DNA from: Eutreptiella sp. 'Long Island Sound 2002'
Taxonomy: Eukaryota; Euglenozoa; Euglenophyceae; Eutreptiales; Eutreptiaceae
DNA length: 64,000 nt
Assembly (NCBI GenBank): GCA_964036045.1
Contig: OZ038388.1
Span: 29,533,759 to 29,597,758 of the forward strand
Direction of reading: 5' to 3'
This document shows, in pieces, positions 19,320 to 52,179 of the stretch. Under the pieces are notes generated by a model. That model did no database searches. It had not been told where the DNA came from and saw only the letters and a list, made by a program, of their open reading frames with translations. The position numbers and the translations under genes were made by a program. Within the stretch, counting starts at the first letter, position 1. Each line of letters begins with the position of its first letter.

Positions 19320-19330
19320 CTAGTGCCAGT

Positions 19331-24161: not shown

Positions 24162-24168
24162 CCCCCTT
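24162..24168 (-). promoter_or_regulatory. Polypurine tract of G2
   Basis: Read on -, CAAGGGGGG runs into the 3' LTR start (AGTAAG). The equivalent position outside the 5' LTR lacks it, as expected for a 3' LTR primer. Confidence 0.6.
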
Positions 24169-34360: not shown

Positions 34361-34562
34361 GGCGGAGGAGTGACGTCAGTGACGTGTGTGTCGTGCTGAG
34401 GGTGGAGAGGAGCCCACAATTTCGGGCCTGGGTTCGGCGCCTTTGGGCGTAGTGGTGCTCGTTGTCGTGTGCGTTGGCTTCCTTCGGCGTCCGGTTCGTT
34501 TGGTGACTTTTGGGCGGGGCCTGGCGTGGCACCCCGTGGTGGTGGTGTGCTGGGTAACGGGG

Positions 34563-35903
34563 TTAGATGGCGGCGCCGCTGGCCGGGGGGTCAGGCGCGT
34601 CGTGTTGTGTGGCGCGCAGGGCTCCTGGGGTGCTGTGGGTGTCGCCGGTGTCGGTGCGCCGACGCTTGTGGGGTGGTGAGGGGGTGTGTGCGTGCGGGGC
34701 TGGGCTTCGGGTGATGTCCCACAGGCGGATGCCGTCTCGCCGCGTTTCCTGGAGGGTCTCCCGCAGGCGCCTGAGGACATACGGGTGGTCCTGGGGCGCG
34801 GGGGGGTTGCGGGGGTGGACTCCCAGGGGGTGGAGCGCATCGGCCAGCATGGCTTCCCATGCGGCCTGCGGCATCCAGCCCCCCGCCGGCCGGAGGCGGC
34901 AGTTCTCCACCGACCCCTTGCGGGGCCGATGGACCAGGCCCTCGAGGGAGGGCTCTCCCCGGGCCCATTTCCGCAGCTCCCAGAGCTGCGTGTGGGTCCA
35001 GCGCTGCCACCACTGTTCCTGGGCGGGCCTGCGGTCTTGGGCGGAGGAGTGGGCGTGGGTGGGTGTGATGGGGTCGTGGAGACCGGCGGCGGTGGCGGGC
35101 CTGGGGGATTCTTCGTAGTCCTGTTCCGTGGGGGTGCGTGGGGAGTGGGGGTGCACGCGGATGTGGACCCGCGGGTGTGCGCGTACGGTGTCCGCCTCGG
35201 GGTTGGGCGGGGATTCGCGGCGGCGGCGGTAGTGGGGCATGCGTTGCATGTGGGCTGTCATCGGGGGCCGGTAGGGGGGCGGGGACGCTGCTGGTGGACC
35301 CTGGCGTTGTTCTGACTTGGTCAGGAGCGGTCCGTGGGCCTGGGGTGCGGGCTTTGGGAGGTGGCGGGACGAGGCGCGTCGCGCTTCGGCCGCGGCGCGC
35401 TCCGCCATGAAGGTGGTGGCGGTGGCGTCGGTGACGGTGGGGGGGCGCCGCGCTGGGCGCTGCTGCCTTCGGGCCTGGGACGGCTGGGGCCGGATGTCGT
35501 AGAGGACATCCTCGGGGGGCCGGGCACGCGCTGCCGTCGTGGCGCCGGGTTTGGGCTTGGGTTTGGGCTTGGCTGCGGGTTGCCGTTTGGCGGCGGTCTT
35601 GGGCTTCGGCTGGGTCGTGGGCGTGGGCTTCGTCGGGGCGTGGGCCTTGGCGGCGGTGGGGCTGCTCGCGTTGGGGGCGGGTTTGGAGGCCCGTTTTGGG
35701 AGGTGTCCCCCGCGGCCTGGGGGGTGGAGTGCTGGATGAGGACCTGGTGGTGGTGGTGGATGAGGTGGTCGTGGTGGTGGATGTTGTGGAGTCGGAGGCG
35801 GAGGAGAGGGCTGCGGGAGACGGCGGAGGGTCCCGGGCCTCGGGGGCGGGCGTGTGATGCTGGGTCCTGTAAGTAGCGAGAACGAGGGTGCAGGTTCGGG
35901 CAT
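34563..35903 (-). CDS. L2 frame Y, unknown 446-residue protein
   Basis: N-terminal 130 residues are Pro/Lys/Ala low complexity (repeated KPKPKP). A C-terminal part looks foldable: EQWWQRWTHTQLWELRKWAR, GGWMPQAAWEAMLADALHPL and HPYVLRRLRETLQETRRDGI with alternating charged and hydrophobic residues suggesting helices. It overlaps a competing 332-residue frame at 35321-36319 that is pure low complexity and which I reject. Function unknown. Confidence 0.4.
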   Translation of the reverse strand: MPEPAPSFSLLTGPSITRPPPRPGTLRRLPQPSPPPPTPQHPPPRPPHPPPPPGPHPALHPPGRGGHLPKRASKPAPNASSPTAAKAHAPTKPTPTTQPKPKTAAKRQPAAKPKPKPKPGATTAARARPPEDVLYDIRPQPSQARRQQRPARRPPTVTDATATTFMAERAAAEARRASSRHLPKPAPQAHGPLLTKSEQRQGPPAASPPPYRPPMTAHMQRMPHYRRRRESPPNPEADTVRAHPRVHIRVHPHSPRTPTEQDYEESPRPATAAGLHDPITPTHAHSSAQDRRPAQEQWWQRWTHTQLWELRKWARGEPSLEGLVHRPRKGSVENCRLRPAGGWMPQAAWEAMLADALHPLGVHPRNPPAPQDHPYVLRRLRETLQETRRDGIRLWDITRSPAPHAHTPSPPHKRRRTDTGDTHSTPGALRATQHDAPDPPASGAAI

Positions 35904-35988
35904 CGGGCGTGTGCGCGCGTTTTCCCTGGTGATCCGTGCGTGCTGGTGTTGGCGTGGCGGCGTTGTCTCGGCTGCGCGGGCACGTGGG

Positions 35989-38900
35989 TTACCCGGGGGC
36001 CGGCCATATCTGCTCCAGGACGTGGGGGTGTGTTTGCTGGAGGTAGTCGAGGGTCCGGAAGAAGCATCGCTGGATGCCGGGCATGTCCTCCTCTGTGAGG
36101 TGGGGGTAGTTTTGGGTGGGGGTGTGGGGGCCCGGCCATAGCAGCGTCATGAGGCGGGCTGCCACCATGTACGGGCATAGTTGTAGGGTGGTGGGGCGTG
36201 GGGGGGTGGGTCCCCTGCGGTTTGGGGGGGCTTCCCTCTGCTGGGGGCGCAGCGTGACCACCCACACCCATCGGTCCGTGGGGATCCCCCAGGTCCGTTG
36301 GGTCGACTTGGCGAGGCAATACATCGCCCTACCAAGGCCCTGGTAGCCGCTGCGGATGGAGAGCAGCGTGTCCAGGGATTCGGGTTCCCACGTGCCCCAG
36401 ATGTGGGGGTCATCCGGGTCGTCCCCCCTGGCGTACGTGTCGGGGCCTGGGTTGTGTGGGGGGGGGGTGTAGTCGGCGGGGAGGAGGGAGTCGGTGCCGT
36501 GTACCACCCAGTGGTCTGTGGGTGCGTCGTAGGTGGTGGTGGAGAGGGTGTAGTGCAGATTGTACATGAGGGTCATGTACGTGGAGGGGGCTGGCTGCTG
36601 CTCGTCGGGGGTGGGGATGTCCCCCGGGATGTGGTGCTGGAAGTTGCTTAGGGAGGCCATCCGGGCTACCCATGTTTCCCGCTCCCACTCTTTGGTGCTG
36701 TCGGGGGTGGCGTCGGCTGGGGGGTGGGCCATGTTGGGCTCGCGGTAGCGGGTGCGGCCCTGGGTGCTATCCCGCTCCCGCACGGGGTGTCCGACCAGGT
36801 GTCGCCCCAAGTCGATGGGGGGCACCCAGATCCGGCTCCCCGTGGGGGGCGGGCTCTCGCCGTCTGGGGTGGCGCGTGGGGGGCGCTCGTGTCGGGCGAC
36901 GTGGAGGAAGGCGTCGAAGGGGAAGTCTCTGACGCCTTCCTCCAGGGTGGCCGCCTGGACCAGGGTGGCCGCCCGGATGGGGGTGCTGGTGCCGGAGGTG
37001 CGGAGGTACAGCACGACGTCCTGTTCCCCGAGTCCCCGGAGGTGCTGCCGTACCGCTGCGGGGTTGTGTAGGGCGTAGGGTTCGGCCGGTGCGGCGACTG
37101 GTGGTGCGGGGTGTGATGGGGGGGCTGGTGTGGGTTGGGGGGGGTGGTCGTCGTTGTCGCGCGTGGGGTCCGGTGATGGGGTCTCTTGTGGCGGTCGCGG
37201 GAGGGGGGATTCGCGGTGGCGTGTGTCGGCGGGGGTATCGACGTCAATTGGCTGGTGCTGGCTGCCGCGTGTTGTGTCCGTGGCCTGGTCTCGGGGGGGG
37301 GGGCGGGGGGGGGTGGTGTGCGGGTGGCGCTGTTGGTGGTTGGGGGGGCGGGGGTGGGTGTTGTGCTGGCTGGGGGTCTGGGCGTCCCTGTGGGTCGTGT
37401 GGGTGTTGCGTGTGTGCGCCGTGCGGCCCTTGCGGTTCTTGACTGGTTGTGGTGCCGGGGTGTGGGTGGGAGGCGGCCGCATGGGCGTCCGGGTGGGGCT
37501 GTGGTCCGTATGTAATGGGTGGCTGCTGGTGGATGGTGCTCGCTGGTATGGGGTGTGGGTGGGGTGGCTGCTGGTGGTGGTGGGGTGGGGGGGGCGGGGG
37601 TGGGTGTTGTGCTGGCTGCGGGTCCGGGCGTCCCTGTGGGTCGTGTGGGTGTTGCGTGTGTGCGCCGTGTGGCCCTTGCGGTTCTTGACTGGTTGTGGTG
37701 CCGGGGTGCGGGTGGGAGGCGACCGCATGAGCCCCCGGGTGGGGCTGTGGTCCGTATGTGATGGGTGGCTGCTGGTGGATGGTGCTCGCTGGTATGGGTG
37801 TGGGTGGGGGGGCTGTTGGTGGTGGTGGGGCGCTCCTACTAGGCCCTGGTGTTGCTGTTGTGCGTGCGCGGTTCCTTGCGGGTCCATGGGGGTGTACCGT
37901 GGCTCGTATGTCGTGGGCCCGTGTAGCGGGGGCGGCGGGTGGTGCTGGACCGCGTGGTGGTGGTGTGGAGGGTGTGCCGGTTGTGTGTGGTACCCCGGCG
38001 TTGGTGGGTGTGGTGGCAGGGGCTGGTGGTGGTGGAATACGTGATGGTGTGGTGCGGTGATGTGCGCTATGTGGGGTGGGTGGTTCGCGGGGCCTGGTTG
38101 TGCTGTGGCGTGGTGGGGATGTAGCTGGTGGGGGTCGCTGTAGCATGGGGGCATTAGGGGGTAGGGGTTGGGAGGGACGGGGGCGTGGTGGTGGTGTTGG
38201 TGGTGCCATGTCCCCTGGCTCTGCGCGTACGCTGGTCCTGGCATGGTGTGGACGTGTGTGGGCGGTGGTGGCTGACTGGGCTGCAGGGTTTGGGTGCTGC
38301 GGTACGGTGGTGGTGGTGGGCGCTGGCGGTGGTGGTGTTGTTGGTGTGCCCCGGGGGTCTGGGCGTGGGGCGGTGCGGTGTGGCTAGACCCGGGCCTTGG
38401 TTGGGGCGTCGCGCCCTGCTGGCGGGCGCGTTGGCGGGCCCCCTGACCTCTCTTGGTCTTCTTGGCCTGGTGGGTGTCGGGGGCGGGTGAACCCCCCTGT
38501 CCCCGTGGGGGCGACGGGGAGCGGGCGTGCCAGCGGTGTGCCTCTTGGAGGCTCATCTTGAGGCCTCTGACGTAGGCTTCCTGGTCCGTGAGGCCCATCC
38601 GCGTGGCGGTGGCCTCGTCGGGGGCGGCCAGGTGGGCGTCCCGAAAAGACGCCCAGCCCTCCAGGGGCTTCTGTTGTGCGGGGTGGGGGTGGTGTGCCGG
38701 GTAGAGGAGTGCGCTGAGTGGGTAAGGTGTTCCTTGCCGTCGGCCGAGGGCGTGTTTGAACCGGCGGCAATTGATTCGGAGGTAGGCTGCTATCTCCTCT
38801 GGCGCCGTGTCGGCCCACGCTTCCGGCGTCAGGGCTGCTGCTTGGGGGGCCGGGGGTTGTGGGTCTGGGAGGTGTAGGTCTCGGTGGTGGAGGTACAGGG

Positions 38901-39336
38901 CGAGGAGGATGTGGCGGGCCGCCACGTTTAAGCCGCCTCCGCTGTGGCGTAGGGGTGGGCTGTGGGGGGGCAGGGGTGTGTTGCCCGTGGCCACGGCTAT
39001 GGTCCATGCGTGGTCCGCCGCGTCCGCCACGTAGTACCCTCCCAGTTGGTCCCGGAGGGTGTCGGTGAGGAACCCGAAGAAGCTGGGGTGGCTGGCGGGG
39101 GGGGGGTGCGGCTGGGGCCGCGGGCCGTTCGCGGTGGCGGGGGTTGAGGTCCCCGCAGTGGGGGCAGTGGGTGAGGCGGTGCGCGGCTCCCAGGCAGACC
39201 CAGTGGTCTGGGTTGCAGGGCAGGGCTGTCTGTGGTAGCCGCTGGCGAACGCAGAGGGGACATGCGGTGGCTGGTGGTTGGTGGTACCTGTGGACGGACG
39301 GCGGCGTGGGGGGATGGGGGCTGGTGGCGCGCGCAT
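35989..39336 (-). CDS. L2 frame X, unknown protein of about 1100 residues with 82-residue repeats
   Basis: From an ATG at 39336 the frame runs to 35989; it is open further upstream but there overlaps the RT C-terminus in another frame. Non-low-complexity parts are FFGFLTDTLRDQLGGYYV, ADHAWTIAVATGN, GLNVAARHILLALYLHHRDL near the start, a helical stretch (EEIAAYLRINCRRFKHALG), and near the end YMTLMYNLHYTLSTTTYD, DRWVWVVTLRPQ, CPYMVAARLMTLLWPG. The middle is His/Pro-rich with an in-frame 82-codon repeat (37337-37830). Just upstream, in the +1 frame, is a Cys/His cluster (CPLC...LPC..DHWVC...CPHCGD), which a single slip in the ten-G run near 39097-39106 would fuse to X. No family recognised. Confidence 0.45.
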   Translation of the reverse strand: MRAPPAPIPPRRRPSTGTTNHQPPHVPSAFASGYHRQPCPATQTTGSAWEPRTASPTAPTAGTSTPATANGPRPQPHPPPASHPSFFGFLTDTLRDQLGGYYVADAADHAWTIAVATGNTPLPPHSPPLRHSGGGLNVAARHILLALYLHHRDLHLPDPQPPAPQAAALTPEAWADTAPEEIAAYLRINCRRFKHALGRRQGTPYPLSALLYPAHHPHPAQQKPLEGWASFRDAHLAAPDEATATRMGLTDQEAYVRGLKMSLQEAHRWHARSPSPPRGQGGSPAPDTHQAKKTKRGQGARQRARQQGATPQPRPGSSHTAPPHAQTPGAHQQHHHRQRPPPPPYRSTQTLQPSQPPPPTHVHTMPGPAYAQSQGTWHHQHHHHAPVPPNPYPLMPPCYSDPHQLHPHHATAQPGPANHPPHIAHITAPHHHVFHHHQPLPPHPPTPGYHTQPAHPPHHHHAVQHHPPPPLHGPTTYEPRYTPMDPQGTAHAQQQHQGLVGAPHHHQQPPHPHPYQRAPSTSSHPSHTDHSPTRGLMRSPPTRTPAPQPVKNRKGHTAHTRNTHTTHRDARTRSQHNTHPRPPHPTTTSSHPTHTPYQRAPSTSSHPLHTDHSPTRTPMRPPPTHTPAPQPVKNRKGRTAHTRNTHTTHRDAQTPSQHNTHPRPPNHQQRHPHTTPPRPPPRDQATDTTRGSQHQPIDVDTPADTRHRESPLPRPPQETPSPDPTRDNDDHPPQPTPAPPSHPAPPVAAPAEPYALHNPAAVRQHLRGLGEQDVVLYLRTSGTSTPIRAATLVQAATLEEGVRDFPFDAFLHVARHERPPRATPDGESPPPTGSRIWVPPIDLGRHLVGHPVRERDSTQGRTRYREPNMAHPPADATPDSTKEWERETWVARMASLSNFQHHIPGDIPTPDEQQPAPSTYMTLMYNLHYTLSTTTYDAPTDHWVVHGTDSLLPADYTPPPHNPGPDTYARGDDPDDPHIWGTWEPESLDTLLSIRSGYQGLGRAMYCLAKSTQRTWGIPTDRWVWVVTLRPQQREAPPNRRGPTPPRPTTLQLCPYMVAARLMTLLWPGPHTPTQNYPHLTEEDMPGIQRCFFRTLDYLQQTHPHVLEQIWPAPG
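37337..37830. repeat. 246-bp tandem repeat inside frame X
   Basis: Two nearly identical units (TTGTGCTGGC at 37361 and 37607) and the start of a third. 246 bp is 82 codons, so the repeat keeps frame X intact; substitutions between units leave the - frame open, mild support for translation. Confidence 0.75.
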
Positions 39337-39454
39337 GCTGGTGGGAGCGTGTGCGGGGCCTGTGGCGCCCGTGTGTGCTGTGCCAGTGCTGTGCTCGGTG
39401 GACGGTGTGTAGACGTGGTGGGGGTTCCGTGTTGGTATGTCACGGGGTAGGTTC

Positions 39455-40232
39455 TCATGGTTGGTAGAACAGGAGTTTGAGGAGGTTGGCTTGGTCTGTT
39501 GGGGGCAGGGTTGCCGCATGCTGCAGGTATTTGTGGGTGCGGTATGTGAGCTGCTCCGCCGTCTTGGCAACGGCCGTCCGCTGCATGTGCGCCGCCGTGG
39601 CCTGGGGGTCCTCCGCGTGGGTGCGTAGCAAGGTGTAGACGGCAGTGGGGACGAGTCCCCTGCGGACTGCCTCGAGCACCTCCGTCTGCTTGAGGACGGT
39701 GGTGAGTTGCTGGGTCGCCGGGGACTGCGCCAGCCATCCGGCGTGCTGTGCGATGGTGTGGGTTGGGTTCCAGTCTTTGAGGGTGTCCAGTCCTCTGTAC
39801 AGGGGGCACGCCTTGAAGTGGTCGGGTGTTTCTTCTTCCGCGTGGCTGCAGATGCATTTGGTGTGTCCTGCGGGGACGTGGATCGAGCGGCGCATATACC
39901 ATCGGTGGTATCGGGTGAGGAGGGGAAGTTGTTCGAGGGCGAGTTGGAGTCGGGGCTTTTGTAGGTGTGCTGAGAGGCTATCCGGGCGCAGGGCGGAGTA
40001 GTAGAGGGGGGTGTGGACGGAGTCTTCGAGGCGTCGGAGGAGTTTCGTGTTCGCTGGGTGGCCCAGTGTGGTGGCCAGTTGCTGGATGGGTGTGGGGTAG
40101 TGGTACTGCTTGTCTCAATCCGTGTACGGCGTGTCCTCGGGCATCCATTGGGGGGGCTGTGTGGCCAGGGGTATCGGGGGCAGGTGCTGCGGGTGGCTGT
40201 GGTGTGGGGTGTCCAGTCGTACATGTGCGAGG
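39455..40232 (-). pseudogene. C-terminal region of a LINE RT/RNase H protein (L2)
   Basis: Frame on - from the G2 junction to a stop at 39455, with one TGA near 40112. Reads NTKLLRRLEDSVHTPLYYSA, LPLLTRYHRWYMRRSIHV, then CICSHAEEETPDHFKACPLY, the Cys/His motif (CxC...ETxxH...CP) that follows RNase H in many LINEs, and ends LLKLLFYQP. RT and most of RNase H are missing, consistent with 5' truncation at insertion. Identification rests on motif order, not on an alignment. Confidence 0.55.
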
Positions 40233-41128
40233 GTTCCCGTAGGCCATCCCGAAAGAGGGCCAGTAAAATTTGTAGCAGCAGTTTTTCCCCTTGCTGCAGT
40301 AGAGGTCCAAGACATGTTGCTTGTCACTGGCGAACAACTCCACGCTCAGGTCTTCTCTGGAGTAACACAACTCCTTCAGACCTTGGTCCATGACTTCGCC
40401 CAGTAATTGATAGTCCTCAGTTTTGGAGGCCGCCATCATGTTTGAAGGCTCCTCCTTCGATACCCTCAGGTAGCTCGAGGTGTATTCAGACTGCTCTAGT
40501 GGCACTGACTCCCTGCCATCAGCATGGGCCACGTAGAGGAGGTAGGGGGCTTGCAGCATTAGGGATTGTAGTTGGGTGTGCTGTACGAAGAAGTCGGTAC
40601 CCAGTACAAAGTCGAAGGCCTCGGTGTCCATCACGGTAGAACCGATGGGCTATAGTTCGGGAGCCCATAGGCACCTCCACTGCACAGTCCCTATAGCTGT
40701 GCACCACATGTCAATCCCACATACAGATAGCCGCGGTAGGCATGGTGTTCGTCAAGCTCCCACGAGGTAAAATTTTCTTAGCCACTATCGATATAGTGGC
40801 TCCGGTATCCAGTACCCCCAGGGTATTCACGTACCCCAATTCGGATACGTACCCAGAACACCAAGTCCAGGGCCCCGGCGGGGCGTCCCCATCCGAGCTC
40901 TGCGGGACATGTGACCTCCAAACCCTTGTTCCGCAATTTGCGGGCCATCCGCATGAAGCGGGTTCTCTTCTTAGCTTGGCCATCGTCACCACCTTCATGT
41001 CCTCGCTTGGCCCCTTGCTCTTGTTGGGCCTGAGTCTGCGAGCGTGTGGTCGACCCGGAACCAGACTGCCCTCCAGAGGGCTAGGAGGTCCCCCGTGGAT
41101 TAGGGTTGGGGTGGCCTCCAGACTTGTC
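40233..41128 (-). pseudogene. G2 protease and methylase-like domain (right copy)
   Basis: Duplicate of 30709-31603: LGVLDTGATISIV is present, the same TGA follows ICMWD, and an extra base near 40636 shifts the frame before DTEAFDFVLGTDFF. The methylase-like domain is cut at YGN by the L2 border, where L2 sequence replaces it. Confidence 0.85.
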
Positions 41129-42154
41129 CTAGTTTTTGTTATCCTTATCTTGCTGGTGGTCAGCGCATCCTCCTCGTCCACCTTGGCTCTTGTCTTGGTC
41201 TTTCCCACAGCCTTTCGACTTGCCTTTGCCAGAGTCGTTCTGGTCCTTGCCACAGCCCTTGCCAGAGCCCTTGCCAGGATCCTCGCCCTTGAGCTTCGCC
41301 GACAGGCGTTGCTTGTGGTAGCACTCATCCTCATAGTGCTTGCGCTTCCCACAAAAGGCACAGGTGATAGTACACCTGTAATGATCCGGCATCTTAGGCT
41401 TGCTGCCGGTGTTGGTCTCCTGCTCCTTCCCCTGGACCACGAAGCAATCGCGCTGATCGCAGTCGGGGGCGTGCTGCAGGTGACCATGCTCGTCTCTGGC
41501 GTCACACCAGAAGAGCTCCTGGACATTGCCCATGATACGCGCTTCCTTGGGGGAAGTCCCCTGTCCAGGTCTGGGTCCCTGGTACCCTTTGTCATGGCTC
41601 CCTGAGCCTCCCCCTCTAGGACGGTAGGCACCCAGATGCTGGTCGCTCTCCTTCTCCGGCGCCAGCTCCAGGAGCAGGACAGACAAGTCCTCGTAGGTGA
41701 GGGTCCTTGCCGTCCTCTCAGCCGTGGCTCGGCCTTCATCCCACACGGAGATAGGAATCCTGGCCACGAGCCACAACAGCAGCTCGTCCCTGCCATAAGA
41801 GCCCTGGGGTCAGCCGCCCCACCCAATGGTCCAGGTCCGCGAGCAACTCTGTGATGCAGGCCACCTTCGGGTTGTTGGGTAGCATTCCCAGGTTCTGTAT
41901 CTCCGTCCTGATGGAGACGTCTGTCTCGTGGGAGGGGTTCTTCCTCTCCAGGGCCATCAGAACCTTGGCGAAGGTGGCGGACTTTGTCACCATCTGTTTT
42001 ACTTGCTTTTCCAGGTATTTTGTCTTGCAACATTGCAACAGCAGATTGCATTGGACCCTGCCACTGGCATGGGTCTGGCCGGTCATCCTCAGGAAGCGCC
42101 CAAAATTCTCGGCACACCCGGATAGGTCCTTCCCCGTGAACTCCGGTAGGTTGA
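40233..42154. repeat. Right copy of a 1.92 kb direct duplication flanking L2
   Basis: Partner of 30709-32629, continuing seamlessly rightward into the remaining G2 gag. Begins at GTTCCCGTAGGCC inside the methylase-like domain and ends at CCGGTAGGTTGA inside gag. Confidence 0.9.
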
Positions 42155-43406
42155 CCACGATCTTCCAAGTGGCAACCGCTTCGGCATCCTGAGAACGATG
42201 ACGTCGGCTCTTCTTCTTCTTCTTCTTCTTCTTCTTTTCCCTCAGATAGTTGAGGTCCTCCGGGTCATCATCGTCTGAAGGGGAGGCTGACGTAAGGGAA
42301 GGCGGCTCATCGTCGGAGGGGTCGCCGCGTAGGTCACTAGAGCCATAAGGCTCAACGTTGACCATAGCCCTCAAGGCTGTAAGTACTGGCTAGTCCAGCT
42401 CTGCTCTGGTGGAGTTAGCCACGTGCCTGTATGGCGGCTGGGCGGTCCTCGGTACAAAGGAGCTCCTGGGCACCACTGCAAGCGTAGGCATAGGCCGGCT
42501 CCTCACTGCTCCAAGAGTGTGGCTCAGCCCAGCCACCAGGTGGTTAGGCTGCAGGCGATGGGAAGAGGCTCCCAGGGTCGTAGGTGACCCTTGCGGCGGG
42601 ATCAGGGGCTCTAGCTTCTCCCTGATCTCTTGGGTAATGTCCCCAACCAGGTCAGCGGTTGCTCCTCGTAGGGCTTCTCCCAGTTCAGACCTGGTCAGGG
42701 AACGATTGGACGATCCCCTCGATCCCCTACTCTTGCTCCCGCACTACTCAGGGCCTCTCCTTAGCCCACTCAGGGTTGCATACCCGGTCGCTGGCATAGG
42801 ATAGCCAGGCTCATACGCTGCATACCCAGGAACATCAGCCATATAGGCTCCCGTAGCCGGTAGAGGATGGTGATGGTGATAATCCGCCACATACCAGCGC
42901 GGCGTAGAACTGGAGGCCACTGGCTCACTGGCAGTAGTTGCCTCTGGAAATGCAGTGGTGGATGGGTCCACACCATAGGCAGGGTAGGTAGGCATGCCAG
43001 TAAAGCCTGTGCTCTCAGCCATAGGGAGGGTGGTTATGAATGTGGATGTTGCAGCAGCTGGGTCTGGAGTTGGGAGTGTGGCGGTTGTAGTAGAGGCTGA
43101 TGCGTGGAGGCCAGAGGCGCTTGGTGCGCCCTCAAAAGTTGGCTCGCTCGTCGGGTCGTGCCCATGGTCCACTCCTTCGTCTGCCATGCCTTCTCCTGCA
43201 TCCTTCTCTCTCTCCCTCTTTCTCTTAACAGGGTCGGTGTCCACCTCCTCGACTGAAAGGCCCCTGAAGGCCGATCCCAGTCCCTCCAGCGAATCGTCAG
43301 CCGCGTGCACTGGCCCATGCAAGGGCACCGAAGGTACAGCGCCAGGTTCTCCAGGTCGAGGCACTACAGGCGCTAGCATTGCTGGTGCCCCAGGCGCCGT
43401 CTTCAC
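41129..43406 (-). pseudogene. G2 gag
   Basis: Starts at 43406 (MKTAPGAPAM), 105 bp after the primer-binding site. N-terminal Thr/Ala/Pro-rich region, then a TAG at 42744 where the sister G3 has a Ser codon. The same frame resumes with RAMVNVEPYGSSDL, a Lys run encoded by a CTT repeat at 42210-42236, NLPEFTGKDLSGCAENFGRF and ALERKNPSHETDVSI, then a one-base shift near 41790, then the knuckle CAFCGKRKHYEDEC. About 750 codons in total. Inactivated by one stop and one shift. Confidence 0.85.
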
Positions 43407-43512
43407 GTCGGTGTCCTCCTTCGTGTCCCTACTTCTCTTCGCCCTTCATGCTCGGGACAGCCCTCGGCGTGCTGGGTGTACGGCACGGGGTTGCTGCCGG
43501 CACGCAGAGGCT

Positions 43513-43530
43513 GTCTGCCTCTTGCTACCA
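43513..43530 (-). promoter_or_regulatory. Primer-binding site of G2
   Basis: Read on -, TGGTAGCAAGAGGCAGAC begins four bases after the 5' LTR. It starts with TGG, the complement of a tRNA CCA end. G3 has TGGTAGCAGAGGCAGACA at the same place. The tRNA is not identified. Confidence 0.6.
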
Positions 43531-43534
43531 GAAG

Positions 43535-44314
43535 GTTTTTATGAGTCTTTCAGCTCTTGTTGTACCTCTCCTGCTGCTTGCTGCTGGTGTAGGGTTCCTG
43601 CTGCTTGTTTTTGATGGAGAAAATGCTTTTTTGATGAAATACAACCAATACAGGATAACCCAAGCCAGAGATGAGCAAGTAGAAGTCAAACAGGATCAAA
43701 GCATGAAGGGCTGCAGTCAGAAAAGAGTTAGATAATAAAGATATCAACAAAAGACTACAGCAATAGACAATCAATGCAACTTGGATCAAAGTATTTTACA
43801 TGTTTGAGAACAACTGATTGGAAAACTGCCCCCAAGGGCTCACACTCCATATAGTGCCATCCCGAGACGTGCACTCTTTGTTTTGAGTCCCAAAGGTGCT
43901 GAGGTGGCATGGCTTGTGGCGCTGAGGTCACTGCCATGTCACATGGGATATTCCTACTTAGCTAGGCTGACTGGGTATTGAACCCAGGACCTCTCAAAAA
44001 GAGGTGCCACAGCCCCCTAGGGTGCAGACCACTAGGATAGCTAAGCATTCATGAGAAAACATAGATAAATCTATAGGCTCTACCTCAGTATGTCAGTGCC
44101 TCAGTCAGTCAGGAAATGATGTATTAGTGCACATTGCTTGGGGATTAAGGGGTCCACACAACATCCTGGTTTAGTGTTTGGTTCTATAGGTCAAAATGTG
44201 TTATCACCCGTTTTGGTCAGGCCAATACTAAGATAAAAATGCAGAATAACTAAGAGCATCTCTAATACAACTAAAGTCTACTCCAAAGCAATGAAAAAGC
44301 ACTTTTTCTTACTC
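43535..44314 (-). repeat. 5' LTR of G2
   Basis: 780 bp copy at the 5' end of G2, followed after four bases by the primer-binding site and then gag. Differs from the 3' LTR at scattered positions, including one T-loop base of the tRNA-like module. Confidence 0.85.
43957..44045 (-). other. tRNA-like module in the G2 5' LTR
   Basis: Same 89 nt module as in the 3' LTR; acceptor, anticodon and T stems are all preserved, with the T loop changed to TTCAATA. Confidence 0.6.
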
Positions 44315-45843
44315 CTCGTTTACCTCGTACAAGGGGTCACCGCCTAGGGTGGACAGGCATTCAGAAAAGACCCTGCCCACAGCTTTTGGCTCGGCTAGGA
44401 GCCTTTGGTCCTTATCCCAGACTTGCAAGGGCTCCCTGGTGCGAAGCTGAAGAGACTCTTGCACGGCCCTCTTGATTTTGCTGCAGCAAATCATGGAGTA
44501 ATGAAGTTTGCGTTTGCACTTTTTGACAGTCTTAGCTTTCCATGAGTCGGCCATAGCCGGTAGTTTGCGCAGAGCCGCCTTGCGCTGTTCACCTCCCTGC
44601 GGCAGGTTTTGAAGAAGGGTTTTAAACTTTGTTTGGAGAGCTGTGTCTTCATGTTCGCAAGCTGGGCGCGTGATACTGTGGTAGGCCTGCGAAATCTACT
44701 TGTAGAGCGCCGTAGCGTGGTCGACAAAAGGGGGAGAAGGGACCTGAAGAGGATATTTGCAAGCCCACTCTTCGAGGGTCGTTAATTTGCAGCGAAAGAG
44801 GGACTCTTCGGCTAGAGTGAGGTGTCTGAAGAGCGTAGATGGTTGGGGGGGCGGGGGATATTCAGGGGTAGAAGGCAATTGGACTCTACAAATGAAGGGG
44901 TGGTGATCAGAGGACCTTTCCTGTTGGCAGAGGTCTGCCTCTTTGAATTTAAAAGATGCTGTGGAGGCCAGGGGGGTGGTGATCAAAAAAAGGTCAATCC
45001 GAGTATCGCAGGGGAGAAGTGCTGATTTGCACCGGGTAAATGCAGAGGTACAGGGGTGCTTGACACGGTACGTATCCACTGCCAAGTGGCGGTCGTGTAC
45101 CAAAGCGGAGGCCAGCTCCATGAGTTGCGGGTGACTCCGTTGGAGTCTAGCAAACTCAATTGGGCGTTAAAGTCACCTCCCAGGACATAAAAGGGGTACT
45201 TTTTGAATAGTTTGTCCAGGGCTTTTTTGAGTTTCTGGCGTTGAGGGGGCTGGGCGTAGACGCTCGCCAAAAGAATGATTGGCTGCCTCGGGAGATGCGA
45301 CTCAGCTAGACTAAGCGCACCCAGGCAAGGTGAGGAGACAGTGAAGGTGTATGGGCCCAGTCTAGGAGCCACTAAGATAGCAGTTCCTTCGGCCCCTGCC
45401 ATTGCAATGGAAGAGAATATTTTGGGAGGTGGTTTCTGGCTTGCCCACATCATGGGAAGGTCTGGTTTCCTGCTGATCTCTTGATAACACACGACGTCAT
45501 ATCCAGCGTCCAAGTCGGCAAGGATGAATTGCTCTGGAGCTTGCTTGTTGATGTTATGGGAGCGAAATTTGAGTAGGGGAGGTGCTAGAGGGTTGGGAGA
45601 AGGTTCGGGGCGCTCAGCGAAAGGCTGAGGTGGGGAGGTTGGAATGAGGGGGGGGCTGGCCGCAGGGTGTTCAGGTTGTTCGGACTGCTGCATAGGGGGT
45701 CGAGGGGCGGGGATTTCCATGGGGGGGTGCCAGGCAGGGGGTACTCGCGGGGAAGGGTCTTGGCCTCGTGAGCCAAAGACACGCTGGATCGTGTCATTGC
45801 TAAGCCCGGTTTTTTTGAGGACTTCTGGCAACGATGGATTCAT
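44315..45843 (-). pseudogene. LINE APE-type endonuclease (ORF2 N-terminal part, L1)
   Basis: Starts at ATG 45843. After a Pro-rich lead come the APE signatures FRSHNINKQ, DVVCYQEIS (catalytic Glu), VLGGDFNAQLSLLDSNG (Asp/Asn), DTRIDLFLIT and SDHHPF (catalytic His). A frameshift near 45122 and a TAG near 44696 interrupt it; the frame then runs through a basic linker to EVNEE at the G2 LTR. ORF2 continues at 23381. The family nicks target DNA for target-primed reverse transcription. Confidence 0.85.
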
Positions 45844-46304
45844 TTATACCAAATCAGGGTTCGTGTGGGTGAGGTAAGGGGTCTCATGATAGAGAAGAGG
45901 AGCCAAGAGTGAGCTGTGCCAGACCAGGGGCGAGCCCTGAGGGGAAGCGTGGAGGGGCTGCGGGACTTTAGGGGGAAAATTCCATAGGTCTGGGCCGTCA
46001 CAGGCGAAAACTCGGGGAACCGGGGGTAACATACGTCGCTGTGATATCGCAGCGAAGCTCCATGGACATTCAGATGTAAGGTAGCAGCCAAGCTGGTAAG
46101 GCACACTGCAGTGGAATGGGAGGGGTTGTGACTGACTTGTGTGGCGAACACGTACGCCGATGGTGCGTGTGAAGGGCGACATACTTCGCTGAGGAAAGCC
46201 AGCGAAGATCTGTGTACACCCATGCGTGCTCTAGCCGTCTTGATGATGAATCGTTCTGTATGAAAGTTTGGATGAACGTGCACAACCTGTGATAGGGAGT
46301 GCAC
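45840..46304 (-). CDS. Small frame ending in an ATGA overlap with ORF2
   Basis: 154 codons whose TGA (45842-45840) overlaps the ATG of the endonuclease ORF (45843-45841). Such overlaps serve termination-reinitiation in some LINEs. The peptide is Ser/His/Pro-rich and reads through two of the hairpins, with no recognised domain, and competes with other frames at 46070-46784, so translation is doubtful. Confidence 0.25.
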   Translation of the reverse strand: MHSLSQVVHVHPNFHTERFIIKTARARMGVHRSSLAFLSEVCRPSHAPSAYVFATQVSHNPSHSTAVCLTSLAATLHLNVHGASLRYHSDVCYPRFPEFSPVTAQTYGIFPLKSRSPSTLPLRARPWSGTAHSWLLFSIMRPLTSPTRTLIWYK

Positions 46305-46716
46305 GAATTAAATATTAGAATCAAGGCCGTGGACGGGCGGAGAACGCTGGGGGTTCGGGGTGACGGAAGTAGGGCGCGGGGTTCGGAGGGGAGAACATAC
46401 TTCACCGCTGGGCCGTGAAGCAGATATATTCTCACTCTGACGGAGGAGGAGGAGGTACGGTGGATCTTGCACATGGGAGCGCCATTGGGCGTAGAGAGAG
46501 GCTGAAAGGGGCGAGTGTGGCACCGATAATAAGTGAGCGTGGCGCGGATATGAGTCCTTCCAGAGCCATAGTGCACAGTGGAGACAGTTTCGTGATCGCC
46601 GCAGGCAGGATTCGGAATGAATCGTGTATGCAACAAAAGACAGTGTGTTTGTGGGCGTGTATGTTTGAGTGGGGTGGGGCTGGGGTGACATACTGCACAG
46701 CTGTGTTGCAGCGGGG
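46026..46716. repeat. Four dispersed hairpins sharing an ACATAC lead
   Basis: At 46026-46058, 46176-46210, 46391-46423 and 46684-46716 the + strand reads ACATAC followed by a stem-loop: GTCGCTG/CAGCGAA, TTCGCTG/CAGCGAA, TTCAC/GTGAA and TGCA/TGCA. Stem bases differ while pairing is kept, resembling compensatory change. Units lie about 150, 216 and 292 bp apart between the AlkB frame and ORF2. Confidence 0.55.
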
Positions 46717-47135
46717 TCTTGTTTTTCTTGTAATGAACAGTACTCCGTTGCAGGCACACAAATTACAAGGGATCTGAGGTCCAACTGTTGGGGTGTTTGG
46801 ATGAATTGGAGTGATGATCTGGTGTGTTGAAGTTAAAGAATGTGGCGAAGGTGCCGACTTTAACTACGAATGTCCTCCATGAGGCGGGCAGGGAGATAAC
46901 CCTCGGTTTATAAAATGCATGCTCATGCTCATGATCGCACTGGAAGCGAGAACCTGCATCGGCGCAAGTGACATTCTGGTAACCCATCGCTGGGACTCCC
47001 TTCACGTCGTCTTGGCCATGAGAAAATACACTGGAGAAAAGAAAGTAAGAGATGTTGAGGGTAAGCCTCAGTGGCCAGAGCCGGGCCGTTTGTGGGCAGC
47101 CAGTGACCAGCTCGTAGTCAAGAGTCTCCTTACCG
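46305..47135 (-). other. Spacer between AlkB and ORF2
   Basis: Together with the preceding 460 bp this forms the 1.3 kb gap in L1. Several short overlapping - frames exist (for example 150 codons ending at 46763 with FNFNTPDHHSNSSKHPNSW); none shows a domain. Two of the four hairpins lie here. Confidence 0.4.
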
Positions 47136-47681
47136 CTATTCATTGTGAATTGGCGGGCGTGGTACGTTCCGGAACAACAGGGAAGTGCGTTGGGTCCGTG
47201 CAATTTTTTCTCCATCTACTTCGTCCTCCATACGAGCCGGAATGCCATGTTTCCACTTTTTTAGGCAATCTCCGATGAGGGCAATGAAGTCACGCCTTCG
47301 ATGGTAGAGGGTGACTGCCGTAAAATCAGTACCATCAGGTGGCGTGAAAACAATTGGCACGGCGATTTGAAGGCCTACAGTGACTACTGTGTCGCCCAGG
47401 AGAGGAGTTTCTGAGTGCTCACCCACACCTACTCCTGGTTCGTACATCGCTACTGTGCACTGGTTGAGTTGGTGTTCGAGTCCATTCCTCCGAAGGAGCT
47501 GTGCCGCGAGGTGATGTGCTTCCGCTAAGTATTCGGGGATAGGGGTGGCAGGCTGGATGTTTCCAACATTCATGTCGAACTCAAAACCAAAGTGTTTTAG
47601 TTTCCTCCTCGTGGTGCAGTCCCAATTAATGTTATTTTGGTGGAGGTGAGAGAGAATGGCCTCTTCTTGTTCCATTTCCAT
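47136..47681 (-). CDS. AlkB-family 2-oxoglutarate/Fe(II) dioxygenase, ALKBH8-like
   Basis: About 181 residues from the in-frame ATG at 47681; the frame is open further and overlaps the ORF1 stop. Landmarks match the ALKBH8 AlkB domain: RRKLKHFGFEFDM, LNQCTVAMYEPGVGVGEHSE, VTVGLQIAVPIVF, KWKHGIPARM and RTQRTSLLFRNV. Iron ligands would be the His of GEHSE and the His of KWKHG, with the two Arg of RTSLLFR binding 2-oxoglutarate. The usual HxD is HxE here, tolerated in some relatives of this superfamily. Such enzymes remove alkyl groups from nucleic acid or hydroxylate tRNA wobble bases. No stops or shifts. Lying on a LINE between ORF1 and ORF2, it may act on the element's RNA; that is inference. 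Confidence 0.8.
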   Translation of the reverse strand: MEMEQEEAILSHLHQNNINWDCTTRRKLKHFGFEFDMNVGNIQPATPIPEYLAEAHHLAAQLLRRNGLEHQLNQCTVAMYEPGVGVGEHSETPLLGDTVVTVGLQIAVPIVFTPPDGTDFTAVTLYHRRRDFIALIGDCLKKWKHGIPARMEDEVDGEKIARTQRTSLLFRNVPRPPIHNE

Positions 47682-47698
47682 GGCATCGGGTGCAACAA

Positions 47699-49999
47699 TC
47701 AAACCTGGGACCTCCACCTGTTCCGAAGTTGATGAGGTGCTTTGGCATCGCTCAATTCATTAATTTTTTGATCCTTGGTCAGCGGTGCTTGGTGCAGCCG
47801 TTCATCCGCTTCTATGATCACTGCAGCAAAAGCCTTTGAGCCCAGAGCCATACCAGCCACCACAAGGCGTTGATGCAAGGGGGCTTGGGGTTCAACATCT
47901 TGGATGAGGGCGGTTTGTTTGATTTGATTGGGGTTAGCACATACAATGGTTGAGCCGGACATGGAATATTGGTGTGCAAGCGCCACTGAATCTCGAGATT
48001 GGTATTCGGCACGGCTCACATGGCCGTTGTATGCCGGATCCACCGCTTTTCGCCAATTTTTGAACGGGCCAAACAGCGCCGCCGCTACCTTGGCGTGGAG
48101 CTCACGTTCATTAGCCGGCGTTCGTACTTCGAAAGAGCATTGAGTCGGCAGCTCGGACCCCGTGTGCGGAGCAATGGGCTTGTTGTTGTCTTGAGGCTTG
48201 GTTTCCGTGGTCGTGCTGCTCGACCAAAACCTGACCAATTGTGCTTCACTCCCGTAAAAAAGGACAATGCCGTCGTTGTGGAATGAATTCCACGCTAAGG
48301 ATTGTAAAGGATTGCGACCGTTGTCGCCTGGCACGTGTGAAACATCCAGTTTGGCCAAAAGGCTATTTTTAGACCGCAAAGAGCAACCTTCAACCATGGT
48401 GCAAGGCGGTTTTACGTACCCAGAACGCATTATGGTGCACCATGTTTCGGGTGCATTCATTTTGGGGTGATCCTTTAGTCGCTCCCAAGACGCTCTGAGT
48501 TGAAAAATGTTGCCTTGCTCAAGGTCGGATACCTTAATGGCGAAGAGATATCCGTTTGATGTCCAGTCATGATCCATCATCATCTTGAAAAGAAGATGGG
48601 CACTTGTGGTGGGGAGGGTCCATTCGAAACGCAAATATGCTTCATGAGGGGATTTGATGATGCAACCGCCTCCGAGTGGGAAGGCGGCTGCTGGGGAGTT
48701 AAGGGATATATCTTCCTGACCGGGCGAAAATTGCCGGATCAAGAATTTTTGGAAGCCCCTTACATTGGTCATCAATCTTTCATCCGGTTGTTTGGCGGTA
48801 GGTTTTCCTGCTTGTGTGTCGATAGTGAAGCGCTCTGCATAATAATGTTGGAGGACATCACGCCGCACGTCGAACCGAATGGTTGTCTCCAAGTCTCTAA
48901 TATTCTTGGGAATACTCAATTGGTTAATTGCCCATTGAACATGGAAACCATCACTCCGATAATCAAAAAGCTCAACGGGGTCATTGGCCTTGTGATGCGT
49001 GTTAATGTGGATGCTCACATAAGGGCGCTCCGGGATATTGCCTTTACGGAGTTGAAAACCATGCAAGGAGGACATCATAGGTGCAACACCATGGTGTACA
49101 ACGACCTTATCAACGGCCCATTTCCAATCTAGGAGGGGCCCGGCGGCAAATAGTAAATGATTGCGCGCCGTTGTATGCCTCTCCCAAGACTCCATAGTCC
49201 ACCACCCGCTCATGTGGAAGTCTTGATTGTCCTTTTTTAGTTGGTTGTACGCGGCCTTCAAGAATTGGCTATACACCTTGGAGGAGTAGACATGGTCCGG
49301 TTGAATGCGTTCGTTGTTTTGCGGGAAGGTATACCACGTAGTGTGGTTTTTGAGATAATGTTTGAGACTTTTCAATGGGTCAGGAGCCCTTGTTATGGAG
49401 AGGGCCTTGTGTCCTTCGGGGATGGCCAAAGCTTCGTGTGATCGGTGCAAGTCGTCCTCGTCCATTCCCATTTCCAACTTTGCCAACTCGTATAGGCGTG
49501 ATCTAGCCTCGGTAGGAAGAGATAGTTTCTTTCCGTTGGTGGTCTTGTTGTTGTCCTTATCATGTCTATAATAGACGAAGTCGTTTTTTACCATGTTCTC
49601 GGATATACTCTTGACGTGCTTGGGGAGTATGGACGGAGTAGATAAAGGTGCTCTCCAGTTGATGACGGGTGTGTAGTTGGACGTAGTGTTCGACGAACTC
49701 AATAGGCTGAACATTTTATCGCCGTTGGTTGATAACAGATAGATGGCTGAAGTCGGTTGACAAATATTAAGTTGGCGGCCGCAAAAGTCACCAACAAGGG
49801 TTGATTGATGGATTGGTGCAAGGAGTTCAAGAAAGACGGTATATCCGACGATGAATGTCATAGCGGGGATGTTGGTAAGGTATAAGGATCCCCAATTGAC
49901 GAACGGATAATTGAAATGATTGAGAAATTGTTCTGGACGGATATTACGCCCGTGAATGGCTGATCCTGGACGATTTTTATTTGAATCAGCTTTATTCAG
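47699..49999 (-). CDS. L1 ORF1, unknown protein, 5' truncated
   Basis: Open from the junction with G5 to a TGA at 47699, about 765 codons; the first ATG is 49861 but roughly 45 codons upstream read equally well (PEQFLNHFNYPFVNWGSLYL), so the true start is lost. Not low complexity: stretches such as DFHMSGWWTMESWERHTTAR, PLLDWKWAVDKVVVHHG and FHVQWAINQLSIP. No RRM, zinc knuckle, RdRp GDD or other motif is recognised. Its size and texture would also suit a capsid-type protein, and RNA viruses with AlkB exist, so a captured viral segment is the main alternative to LINE ORF1. Codon use looks A/T-richer than the flanking gypsy genes. Confidence 0.65.
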   Translation of the reverse strand: MNKADSNKNRPGSAIHGRNIRPEQFLNHFNYPFVNWGSLYLTNIPAMTFIVGYTVFLELLAPIHQSTLVGDFCGRQLNICQPTSAIYLLSTNGDKMFSLLSSSNTTSNYTPVINWRAPLSTPSILPKHVKSISENMVKNDFVYYRHDKDNNKTTNGKKLSLPTEARSRLYELAKLEMGMDEDDLHRSHEALAIPEGHKALSITRAPDPLKSLKHYLKNHTTWYTFPQNNERIQPDHVYSSKVYSQFLKAAYNQLKKDNQDFHMSGWWTMESWERHTTARNHLLFAAGPLLDWKWAVDKVVVHHGVAPMMSSLHGFQLRKGNIPERPYVSIHINTHHKANDPVELFDYRSDGFHVQWAINQLSIPKNIRDLETTIRFDVRRDVLQHYYAERFTIDTQAGKPTAKQPDERLMTNVRGFQKFLIRQFSPGQEDISLNSPAAAFPLGGGCIIKSPHEAYLRFEWTLPTTSAHLLFKMMMDHDWTSNGYLFAIKVSDLEQGNIFQLRASWERLKDHPKMNAPETWCTIMRSGYVKPPCTMVEGCSLRSKNSLLAKLDVSHVPGDNGRNPLQSLAWNSFHNDGIVLFYGSEAQLVRFWSSSTTTETKPQDNNKPIAPHTGSELPTQCSFEVRTPANERELHAKVAAALFGPFKNWRKAVDPAYNGHVSRAEYQSRDSVALAHQYSMSGSTIVCANPNQIKQTALIQDVEPQAPLHQRLVVAGMALGSKAFAAVIIEADERLHQAPLTKDQKINELSDAKAPHQLRNRWRSQV

Positions 50000-52179
50000 G
50001 CATGGTAGTGCTGAAATCGAAAAAAAATGGACACTCAGAAAGTGAGGTGTCCAGCACTCTGCAGTGCCGAGTCACCTGTTGGTCACCGAGACACACGGTC
50101 ACATCGACCCCCCCCAGGGAACGGATGGTCCGACCATCCCCAACCCTTATGGCCACGGTTTCGGTTTTCCGGATCTTGGCCTGTTTCAGCAGTCTGCGGG
50201 CCACGATTGAAAGTGTAGCGCCCCTGTCTAAGACAGCCTTGTAGACCTGATCACCAATTTTCACGGCGATCCAGAAAACCAAATCCTCATCCTCGGAGCC
50301 GCCCCCCTATCCCTCTTCAGGGAACTTGACCTCAACCCCAGCGGCCTGCAGGCACTTGGAGTGCCAATTTAGGCGGCGCTTCTTGGCGTTCTCGCTGCTC
50401 TTGTCGGTGCCATCAGCGCTGGGGCTGGAGGGGGCTGACCGTTTCTCACCGGACGGCTCACCCTTAGGTGTCGGGTTGGGTGCTCCTCTTCCACCAGTGG
50501 GGGGGGCTGAAGACCTTCGTCCTCCAGGGTTACCCTTATCCTTAGAAGCTCCGGGGTTAGGGCGGCCCCCCTTCGGCTCCTCCGCTCTTACCGGAGTTCT
50601 TACGCCCTTCCTCTTCCGCTTTCTTGAGTTTTTCGGATTCGCGGCGTTTGATGTGGCATTCATTTTCATGATGCCTCCTCTTGCCGCAATATCCGCACGT
50701 TATCGTGCAGCGGAAATGGCCTTGGTGCTTTACCTCCTCACCATCTTTAGTTTTCTGCGTGCGCTTCAGCTGGAGCATGCACGCACTTCGCCCATCACAG
50801 TCAGGCGCGTGGCAGGGTCCACCCTTATGGTCAGTTGGACGACAGTAGAAAAGTTTGGGGGCCCCTTTACTATTGGAGGGGGTGGTCTCAGTCATGCACT
50901 TGAGCTGCCCACCACGGCCCTTCACAGGGTTAGAGTGGGGTTGAGGCGACCTCCCTCGAGGAGACTTGTCAGCAGGGGTCTCCCTTTGCAGATGTTCGCG
51001 CAGATACTTGTCCATGTGGGAGTCATTCTCCCTCTCCATGGCCAACTCAATCAACAGATCGACCAGGTCATCGTAAGAGTGCGTGCGAGCTTCCCTCTCG
51101 GACGTCTCTCTGCAGTTATCCCATGTCCTGGTAGGAATCTTCCCCACTAGCCACAAATGTGGCTCAGTCGGCCCATAGGACGAGGGGTTCATGCGCCCCA
51201 TGAGCTCTTCCAACTGCGCCACGAACTCGGAGATGCGCGCAGCAGTCGGGAATCGGGGGAGAGGAGGCAGCTCCTCAATCTCCGTTCGGACACTGAGGTC
51301 CGTTTCATAGGCTGGATACATTCGCTCCAGTCTTTTCAGGAAGTTGCCCCAGTTGGAGCTCTTCCAGATAGCAGTTTTAACCTACCGCTGAAGGAATTTC
51401 TTTTTGCACGACTTTTTGATGAGCGTGCATTTAGTACGGACATCAGCATGTTGCTGACCCGTGAGAAGCAACAACTCAGAAAACTCCTCAGCCCATTCAG
51501 GCAGGTTTTTCGGATCGAACTCAGGGAGTTCGATCTGAAGGTTCGCCGTGGCGATGGCCTTCGCTCCCCTTGCTGGGACGCCTGTGTCACCTGTATCACC
51601 TGAGAGGGGGTAGGGGTGCACTGTGACCAATGGGGCAAGGGAAGACAGACCATAGCCTTTCATCTCAGCCTCTGTGGTGTGACCTACACTGCAGACAGGC
51701 ACAGTCCTCACACGAGGGTGGAAAGGGCTAGCACAGGTGTCCATTGGGGAGCTGCGGATGCCTCTACAGCTCTTCACATCCCTGGTTAGCAGTTCAACAC
51801 CTGAGGACATGGTAGGTGGGGGCTTCTTCAGATCGGAGAGCCCAAACTTCGTCTTGAATGCTGCTGACACTGCACTCAAACTTGGATCTTCATCGCCTGC
51901 ACCAAGGACCGGGGAAAGCAACTCCATGGTCTCATCGACAGCCAGCTTATGGGCCGCCATGCGTGGGGGCAAACCTCGAACCACACTCGTAGGTTCCAGA
52001 GCCACTGCACTGGGACTGGGGCCAGGCTTCATGCATTCATGCTCCTTCGGTCTGTCTGGAGGCGTAGGTTCTCCACACACCCAGTCGGGTTCCTACTCAG
52101 ATGATTGGGCCGGCGACGACCAGTCCATTTCGCCGTGAGGTATGTCGAACGTCTCCTCGGCCCACGTAGCTCCGAACAT
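49992..52179 (-). pseudogene. Ty3/gypsy gag and protease (G5)
   Basis: Gag probably starts at 52179 (MFGATWAEETFDIP); in-frame TAGs occur near 52094 and 51380. Recognisable parts: LPEFDPKNLPEWAEEFSELL, AYETDLSVRTEIEEL, LWLVGKIPTRTWDNCRETSE and the knuckle CGYCGKRRHHENEC. The gag frame stops at 50557, overlapping a frame shifted +1 that begins upstream of 50669, passes a TAG at about 50308 and holds the protease YKAVLDRGATLSIVARRLL. Here the catalytic DTG is DRG, so the protease is dead. Confidence 0.8.

Follow-up and report, generated by a model that had tools for sequence, protein, structure and literature searches.

Does an AlkB-type oxygenase frame lying between a long frame of no Pfam family and an endonuclease frame belong to a retrotransposon, and if it does, what could a retrotransposon use it for? 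The question is raised by a 64,000-nucleotide stretch of contig OZ038388.1 of the euglenid Eutreptiella sp. (hereafter the window). An earlier note on this DNA described an AlkB open reading frame (ORF) carried by a unit resembling a long interspersed nuclear element (LINE), without being able to exclude that AlkB and the adjacent ORF1 merely adjoin it. Our analysis identifies the unit, with near certainty, as a member of a group of LINEs of the apurinic endonuclease (APE) type whose ORF1 ends in an AlkB-type 2-oxoglutarate (2OG)/Fe(II) oxygenase.

The LINE insertion and its ORF1

The unit lies on the minus strand and is bracketed by a 12-bp target-site duplication (Table 1). In minus-strand orientation its borders read ...GTGCTGGACACC/TCACTTTCTGAG... 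at 50046/50045 and ...AATTCAAAAA/GTGCTGGACACC... at 19152/19151, and joining the outer flanks restores a frame of the target element (...QQVTRHCRVLDTDAFDIVIGTDFL..., protease-like, as named from the sequence). A long terminal repeat (LTR) retroelement is nested in ORF2; since the LINE ORF2 frame is kept when the flanks of this nested element are joined (LYEVNE-GTLSAHISRV), the order of the LINE is ORF1-AlkB, APE, reverse transcriptase (RT), RNase H. The RT matches RVT_1 (PF00078) with E 5.8e-27 in 20313-23396, and the RNase H match (PF00075) is weak in the window (E 0.005, below cut-off) and above cut-off at two other loci, L012 and L027. With RT, APE, a long target-site duplication and no LTRs of its own, the window unit is an APE-type LINE; no LTR or integrase belonging to it was seen. 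Its ORF2 is broken by a frame change at about 44983-45166 and an in-frame stop at 44696, whereas PF03372, RVT_1 (E 3.9e-26) and RNase_H lie together in one 1338-aa frame in L012. The 3' end is AATTCAAAAA in the window, and short A-rich runs or none in other copies.

The 206-aa AlkB frame matches PF13532 with E 8.5e-5 and 23.3 bits, below the curated cut-off of 31.2 bits, and its best relative by sequence among solved structures is human ALKBH8 (3thp; E 8.9e-17). The same Pfam family is found above cut-off in the protein relatives P0006-P0008 and in L010, L027 and L009. Upstream of AlkB, a 790-aa minus-strand frame at 47702-50071 matches no Pfam family and stays open into the flank past the LINE end at 50045. 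Protein searches queried with the AlkB frame returned three relatives (119 candidates scored), and those queried with the 790-aa frame eight (7991 candidates scored). Both parts are found in one protein in three of these eight, P0006, P0007 and P0008, with 937, 860 and 911 aa and representing 19, 13 and 21 member sequences, respectively; the remaining five are partial or, as P0004, terminate at the window's frame break. Because the two parts are fused in these three proteins, and because the alignment of P0007 to the window changes frame between them, we conclude from sequence comparison that AlkB is the C-terminal domain of the ORF1 protein, rather than an extra ORF, and is split off by a frameshift in the window copy. 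A single frame comprising ORF1 and AlkB measures 860-1139 aa in relatives.

None of the domains standard for LINE ORF1 proteins (RRM, CCHC, PHD, esterase) was detected by Pfam at E up to 1 in the window, L010 and L027, or up to 0.1 in P0006-P0008; P0008 has a gp37_trimer match beside PF13532 (E 0.035, below cut-off). In a profile-based comparison with solved structures, all matches fell within the AlkB part, the two weakest being antibodies, and the model of the full protein was poor (pLDDT 44).

Much of the initial description is borne out by these results: the AlkB frame is real and ALKBH8-like, it lies between ORF1 and APE on one strand, and its first iron ligands read HxE (H114-S-E116) instead of HxD. 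The frame was also said to be free of lesions, which holds for AlkB itself but not for the ORF1-AlkB protein, and its description as a separate ORF gives way to that of an ORF1 C-terminus. The LINE unit is indeed a single element, as the duplication attests, but it extends far beyond what had been recognised, with the RT half at 23376-20313 on the other side of the nested LTR element.

Table 1 Features of the LINE insertion and of the elements around it, in window coordinates
Feature	Position	Strand	Evidence
Whole LINE insertion including nested LTR element 23377-44313; ~9.95 kb of LINE	19152..50045	-	12 bp duplicated on either side; target frame restored
Target-site duplication, 5' copy GTGCTGGACACC	50046..50057	-	12 bp
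Target-site duplication, 3' copy GTGCTGGACACC	19140..19151	-	12 bp
Spliced-leader sequence, first bases of LINE (TCACTTTCTGAGTGTCCATTTTTTTTCG; 2 differences from ACACTTTCTGAGTGTCTATTTTTTTTCG)	50018..50045	-	sequence match
ORF1 N-terminal part, no known domain	47738..50045	-	P0007 homology from 49663
Frameshift between ORF1 and AlkB, window copy	47732..47738	-	tblastn of P0007 changes frame
AlkB (2OG-Fe(II) oxygenase) domain, C-terminal in the ORF1 of relatives	47139..47756	-	profile, structure and motif evidence
HxE iron-ligand motif H114-S-E116	47417..47409	-	AlkB frame
Second His of AlkB, in KHGIP	47252-47238	-	AlkB frame
Arg motif RTQRTSLLFR of AlkB	47198-47169	-	AlkB frame
ORF2 endonuclease (APE/Exo_endo_phos) frame	44983..45843	-	PF03372 E 1.1e-5, 25.8 bits (cut-off 24.5)
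ORF2 between endonuclease and RT, different frame, one stop	44314..45166	-	open frames
ORF2 reverse transcriptase and RNase H	20313..23376	-	PF00078, PF00075 matches
3' untranslated region of LINE, ending AATTCAAAAA	19152..20312	-	sequence
LTR retroelement interrupting ORF2, with ends AG...CT and a purine tract preceding the 3' LTR	23377..44313	-	LTRs and duplication
LTRs of nested element, 784 bp each, 96.0% identical	44313-43530 and 24160-23377	-	comparison
CGAGG 5-bp duplication of nested LTR element, 5' copy	44314..44318	-	flank comparison
CGAGG 5-bp duplication of nested LTR element, 3' copy	23372..23376	-	flank comparison
Target element, gag-like and protease-like part (named from sequence)	50046..52092	-	no Pfam match for piece tested
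Target element, rest of protease-like part and reverse transcriptase	16772..19139	-	RVT_1 E 4.9e-23 on 16772-18025

Recurrence, families and selection

The genome searched comprises 2.28 Gb in 2205 contigs and has a euglenid spliced leader. A PF13532 profile search gave at least 151 matches (150 of 1107 candidates scored), the eight top-scoring of which (L001-L008) appear to be cellular, their 3.4-3.6 kb being free of LINE parts. Twenty matches were chosen blind, spread by hand from row 16 to the end of the list, and read over 10 kb each. At 19 of these 20 loci APE lies downstream of AlkB on the same strand; ORF1, AlkB and APE stand in order on one strand at 17, and RT is present too at 15, which is the order that had been proposed as worth seeking elsewhere. 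L024 has AlkB-APE alone, and L009 has AlkB-APE-RT without a recognised ORF1. About 2.4 kb (4184-6578) are inserted within the APE domain of L009. The reciprocal search with the window RT gave at least 46 matches (45 of 17334 candidates scored); eight were sampled, every sixth row from row 2, with 4.5 kb read upstream, and seven have AlkB and at least part of ORF1 upstream of RT. Duplications of 12-17 bp surround units of 8.16-8.24 kb in five of the six family A copies that have the 5' leader described below, the sixth being L011, and many AlkB loci in the genome carry long open frames.

The earlier note could not exclude that AlkB and ORF1 come from a host gene, or from some other element, that merely adjoins the LINE, and L013, whose 10 kb hold an AlkB frame and no LINE parts, is the one sampled AlkB locus that would fit this. 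However, the duplication brackets the whole window unit, five more copies are built alike, and the association recurs at 19 of 20 loci, so that the probability left to such an arrangement is close to nil. The duplication-bracketed unit and its recurrence at both AlkB and RT loci likewise rule out separate neighbouring genes. An insertion border between 45843 and 47136, which had been named as evidence against a single element, was not seen, and a border between AlkB and APE is rejected because their order holds at 19 of 20 sampled loci. The other such sign, AlkB with ORF1 away from a LINE, is countered by the linkage at 19 of 20 AlkB and seven of eight RT loci, L013 having AlkB only. The L013 frame (2736-4034, 433 aa, ALKBH8-like, with HxD) continues into a tandem-repeat protein tail (TNADPVTSQQTAAN...) and is probably cellular. 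Among viral contigs, 129 stretches fitted a pattern and none was confirmed as a relative.

The sampled copies form family A (12 loci), family B (six loci) and family C (the window, P0001-P0003, P0006-P0008 and L030-L036), between which AlkB is 28-32% and RT 34-42% identical. With an AlkB 28-33% identical to those of the three families, L009 probably represents a fourth AlkB-LINE family, to judge from this divergence. Despite 28-33% identity, the Fe/2OG ligand positions are kept across all four: HxD...H plus Arg in families A and B and in L009, with the variants HKD, HVD and HTD, and HxE...H plus Arg in the window family, P0002 and P0003 being incomplete in this comparison. The second His and the distal Arg are retained in each family, and single copies are broken, L011 for instance by a stop and L031 and L036 by lesions. 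Rather than a peculiarity of one copy, HxE is fixed in the window family, in 14 of the 14 family C sequences that cover the site.

This fixed substitution could mean that AlkB serves as a structural or binding module without catalysis, above all in the HxE family. We consider that rather unlikely, as divergence elsewhere in the domain has spared HxE, the second His and the 2OG Arg motif, family C AlkB has a ratio of nonsynonymous to synonymous divergence (dN/dS) of 0.05-0.1 in three pairs, and families A and B and L009 have HxD. Natural 2OG oxygenases with HxE exist, clavaminate synthase among them.

By the Nei-Gojobori method, the family A AlkB (12 copies, 66 pairs) gives mean dN 0.029, dS 0.102 and a ratio of 0.285, and that of family B (five of six copies, L021 being left out for its length; 10 pairs) a ratio of 0.359, in averages over pairs that are not independent. 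Variants common to at least two copies, which are mostly older than insertion, have a nonsynonymous-to-synonymous ratio (N/S) that in A, with 9 N and 14 S, is 0.23 of neutral and in B, with 4 N and 10 S, is 0.15 of neutral, and singletons one of 0.44 (A) and 0.53 (B), the counts being small throughout. Shared-variant N/S values for A and B, respectively, are 0.34 and 0.11 in ORF1, 0.10 and 0.14 in APE, and 0.07 and 0.38 in RT. In family C, three of ten pairs yield dN/dS values of 0.050 and 0.052 at dS ~2.2-2.3 and 0.096 at dS 0.34, the other seven being saturated at synonymous sites. AlkB is under purifying selection in all three families, on small samples, which answers the call for a dN/dS comparison across copies. 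That selection has left AlkB largely intact suggests that it is of use to the elements, their own RNA being one possible target.

Spliced-leader 5' ends and candidate functions

The LINE begins with a spliced leader (SL), the sole match in the window at three or fewer mismatches, with none in 100 shuffles. The E. gracilis SL sequence is given in PMC6242988, and a 28-nt SL form 100% identical to that of E. gracilis in PMC3621762. The exact leader followed by GT occurs in 1181 copies in the genome (control 0). A dinoflagellate host was considered and rejected: no dinoflagellate SL is present in the window at three or fewer mismatches, and the Euglena SL fits. The leader stands at the 5' end of the copy in six of the 20 sampled AlkB stretches; it also starts both family B copies whose upstream sequence was read (L047 before L027, L048 before L023) and, in family C, L030, L049 (before L034) and the window. 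Directly after it follow ATTGCCCCTTCAG in A, ATTGACCCTCAG in B and ATTTCAG in C, which constitute one common junction; the conserved ATT...CAG is joined to the leader in the window, L010, L011, L012, L015, L016, L018, L019, L030, L047, L048 and L049.

Because no AG precedes this junction, new trans-splicing would not rebuild it from an inserted copy, which speaks for a leader that the element carries and passes on. On the other hand, that families so divergent agree closely with the host leader speaks for repeated acquisition or for strong constraint. Ahead of CACTTTC, 10 of 12 LINE ends have a T (which in L010 may be part of the target), L012 has a C and L047 an A, whereas the seven typical SL genes among the 10 SL-GT loci read of the 1181 have an A. 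The T could stem from an inherited leader, or from miscopying at a modified cap base. The other three SL-GT matches, L044-L046, differ downstream from the seven SL RNA loci and have no A before CACTTTC; they are possibly SL retrocopies.

ORF1 proteins of other LINEs, such as L1, bind their own RNA in cis. By analogy, the euglenid ORF1 would coat the element's own RNA in cis, and AlkB, tethered through it, would oxidise modified bases on that RNA. Candidate marks are RT-blocking methyls from the host or from damage (m1A, m3C, m3U) and the silencing mark m6A. RNA cleared in this way would stay translatable, and target-primed reverse transcription could copy all of it, as far as the spliced leader at its 5' end. 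As a whole, an AlkB-ORF1 LINE that clears modified bases from its own RNA is our best explanation, and we consider it about evenly balanced between right and wrong; for own-RNA template clearing as the function, an argument by analogy, our confidence falls somewhat short of even. A bolder proposal is that ORF1-AlkB is a new ORF1 class defining a major euglenid LINE clade, a ribonucleoprotein-borne eraser of host marks or RT-blocking methyls on an RNA that starts with a built-in leader copy, so that the cDNA reaches the 5' end and escapes epitranscriptomic control; this is conceivable, and we would not expect it to hold in full.

ALKBH8 hydroxylates the wobble uridine of tRNA (mcm5U34) rather than demethylating, and a tRNA target is for this reason the main rival to own-RNA clearing. 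The LINE AlkB would then tune tRNA modification, at the wobble uridine as ALKBH8 does, or act on other host RNA, in favour of the element's translation. Human ALKBH8 (3thp) is the best sequence match for AlkB of families A, B and C in the library of solved structures, and the fold search agrees: for a model of P0001 with six relatives, of middling quality (pLDDT 64, pTM 0.66), ALKBH8 was the top Foldseek match (E 6.6e-12, TM 0.62 by query, root-mean-square deviation 5.6), followed by ALKBH6, Ofd2 and ALKBH5. However, Pfam finds neither the RRM nor the methyltransferase domain of ALKBH8 in the five ORF1-AlkB proteins scanned (P0006-P0008, L010 and L027), and the window family differs further by its HxE. 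The E-values, moreover, come from a structure library and not from phylogeny; in an AlkB tree the branch that separates off the LINE domains has a support of 48/0 only, compatible with a single capture without establishing it, and ALKBH8 lies beside them with weak support; L009 does not favour ALKBH8. A host target thus seems unlikely to us, if the most serious competitor.

AlkB folds also include DNA enzymes, and E. coli AlkB and C. elegans NMAD-1 are among the matches of the domain, so that it might, for example, repair alkylated single-stranded cDNA or remove 6mA where the element inserts. ALKBH8 is a better match than these, however, and the domain sits on ORF1, not on ORF2 with its DNA-cutting and copying enzymes; we consider a DNA or cDNA target quite unlikely.

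Several observations weigh against an own-RNA eraser borne by this LINE group. The logic of the nearest relative points equally to tRNA, and the fit to ALKBH8 is not peculiar to the LINEs, being also the top match of the apparently cellular L013; the L009 AlkB fits S. pombe Ofd2 slightly better than ALKBH8 (0.0037 versus 0.0047, both weak). Tethering of ORF1 to its own RNA is an analogy, since Pfam recognises no RNA-binding domain in the N-terminal part, and HxE is, to our knowledge, unusual among AlkB proteins. The selection contrast is not clean, as singletons also lie below neutral; AlkB of family A is less constrained than APE and RT, its shared-variant N/S being higher; and in family C, saturation is close in two of the three pairs computed. 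Besides L013 among the AlkB loci, L029 among the eight RT loci has neither AlkB nor ORF1 upstream. Finally, an alignment of ORF1-AlkB frames found eight further proteins, all of family A and none with PF13532. The longest, P0015 (110 member sequences), corresponds to residues 2-735 of the L010 frame, in which AlkB begins at 787, and the other seven are shorter fragments; P0015 may be a gene model, reflect a shared lesion or broken frames, or represent an AlkB-less subfamily.

AlkB domains are known from other genetic parasites with an RNA stage. Plant RNA viruses of the Alpha- and Betaflexiviridae and the Closteroviridae encode such a domain (cited in PMC9289625), whereas the euglenid AlkB belongs to the ORF1 of a LINE, an element that integrates into DNA. 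The sole AlkB-bearing retroelement met in the literature searched is a Ty3/gypsy LTR element of the orchid Phalaenopsis, also with PF13532; its purified AlkB protein is reported to have m6A RNA demethylase activity in vitro and RNA-binding activity (Alvarado-Marchena et al. 2022, PMC9289625). There, the domain is a separate, recently gained, ALKBH5-like ORF; the euglenid elements are non-LTR, their AlkB is ALKBH8-like and fused to ORF1, and it occurs in deeply divergent families. LINE ORF1 proteins of types I-V are modular, with RRM, CCHC, PHD or esterase as extra domains, so that an enzyme in ORF1 has a precedent in the esterase; AlkB is not mentioned in the available part of that source (PMC4120745), and the euglenid ORF1 is without the standard domains by Pfam. 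No report of AlkB in a LINE was found in the literature searched, which covered few subscription papers and preprints. The trypanosomatid ingi/L1Tc elements, LINEs of Euglenozoa too, have in common a short conserved sequence at the 5' end, but theirs, Pr77, is described as a promoter and a hepatitis delta virus-like ribozyme on an unspliced RNA (PMC8190864), in contrast to the spliced leader of the euglenid LINE. Rfam at gathering threshold gave no match in the window; the Pr77 sequence itself was not compared.

If own-RNA clearing is correct, non-LTR retrotransposition can be held back by epitranscriptomic marks, or by RNA damage, to such a degree that a dedicated enzyme is retained over long evolution. 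The many loci with long open frames and the two ligand variants, HxD and HxE, make the question of function directly testable, and the spliced-leader 5' ends bear on the life of a LINE in a trans-splicing host.

Nested and target elements in the window

The element into which the LINE inserted has an RT (16772-18025) that is 64% identical to the RT at 28694-29743, whose element also encodes RNase H and integrase; on this resemblance the target element is Ty3/gypsy-like. The LTR element nested in ORF2 contains further repeats and inserts, among them a GC-rich stretch at ~33-40 kb and a duplication with segments near 30.7-31.4 kb and near 40.2-40.9 kb, and for this reason seems itself to have been invaded or rearranged. 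A 1020-aa gag-like open frame with a glycine-rich C-terminus lies at 55931-58993 and has only a weak DUF1759 match (E 0.04).

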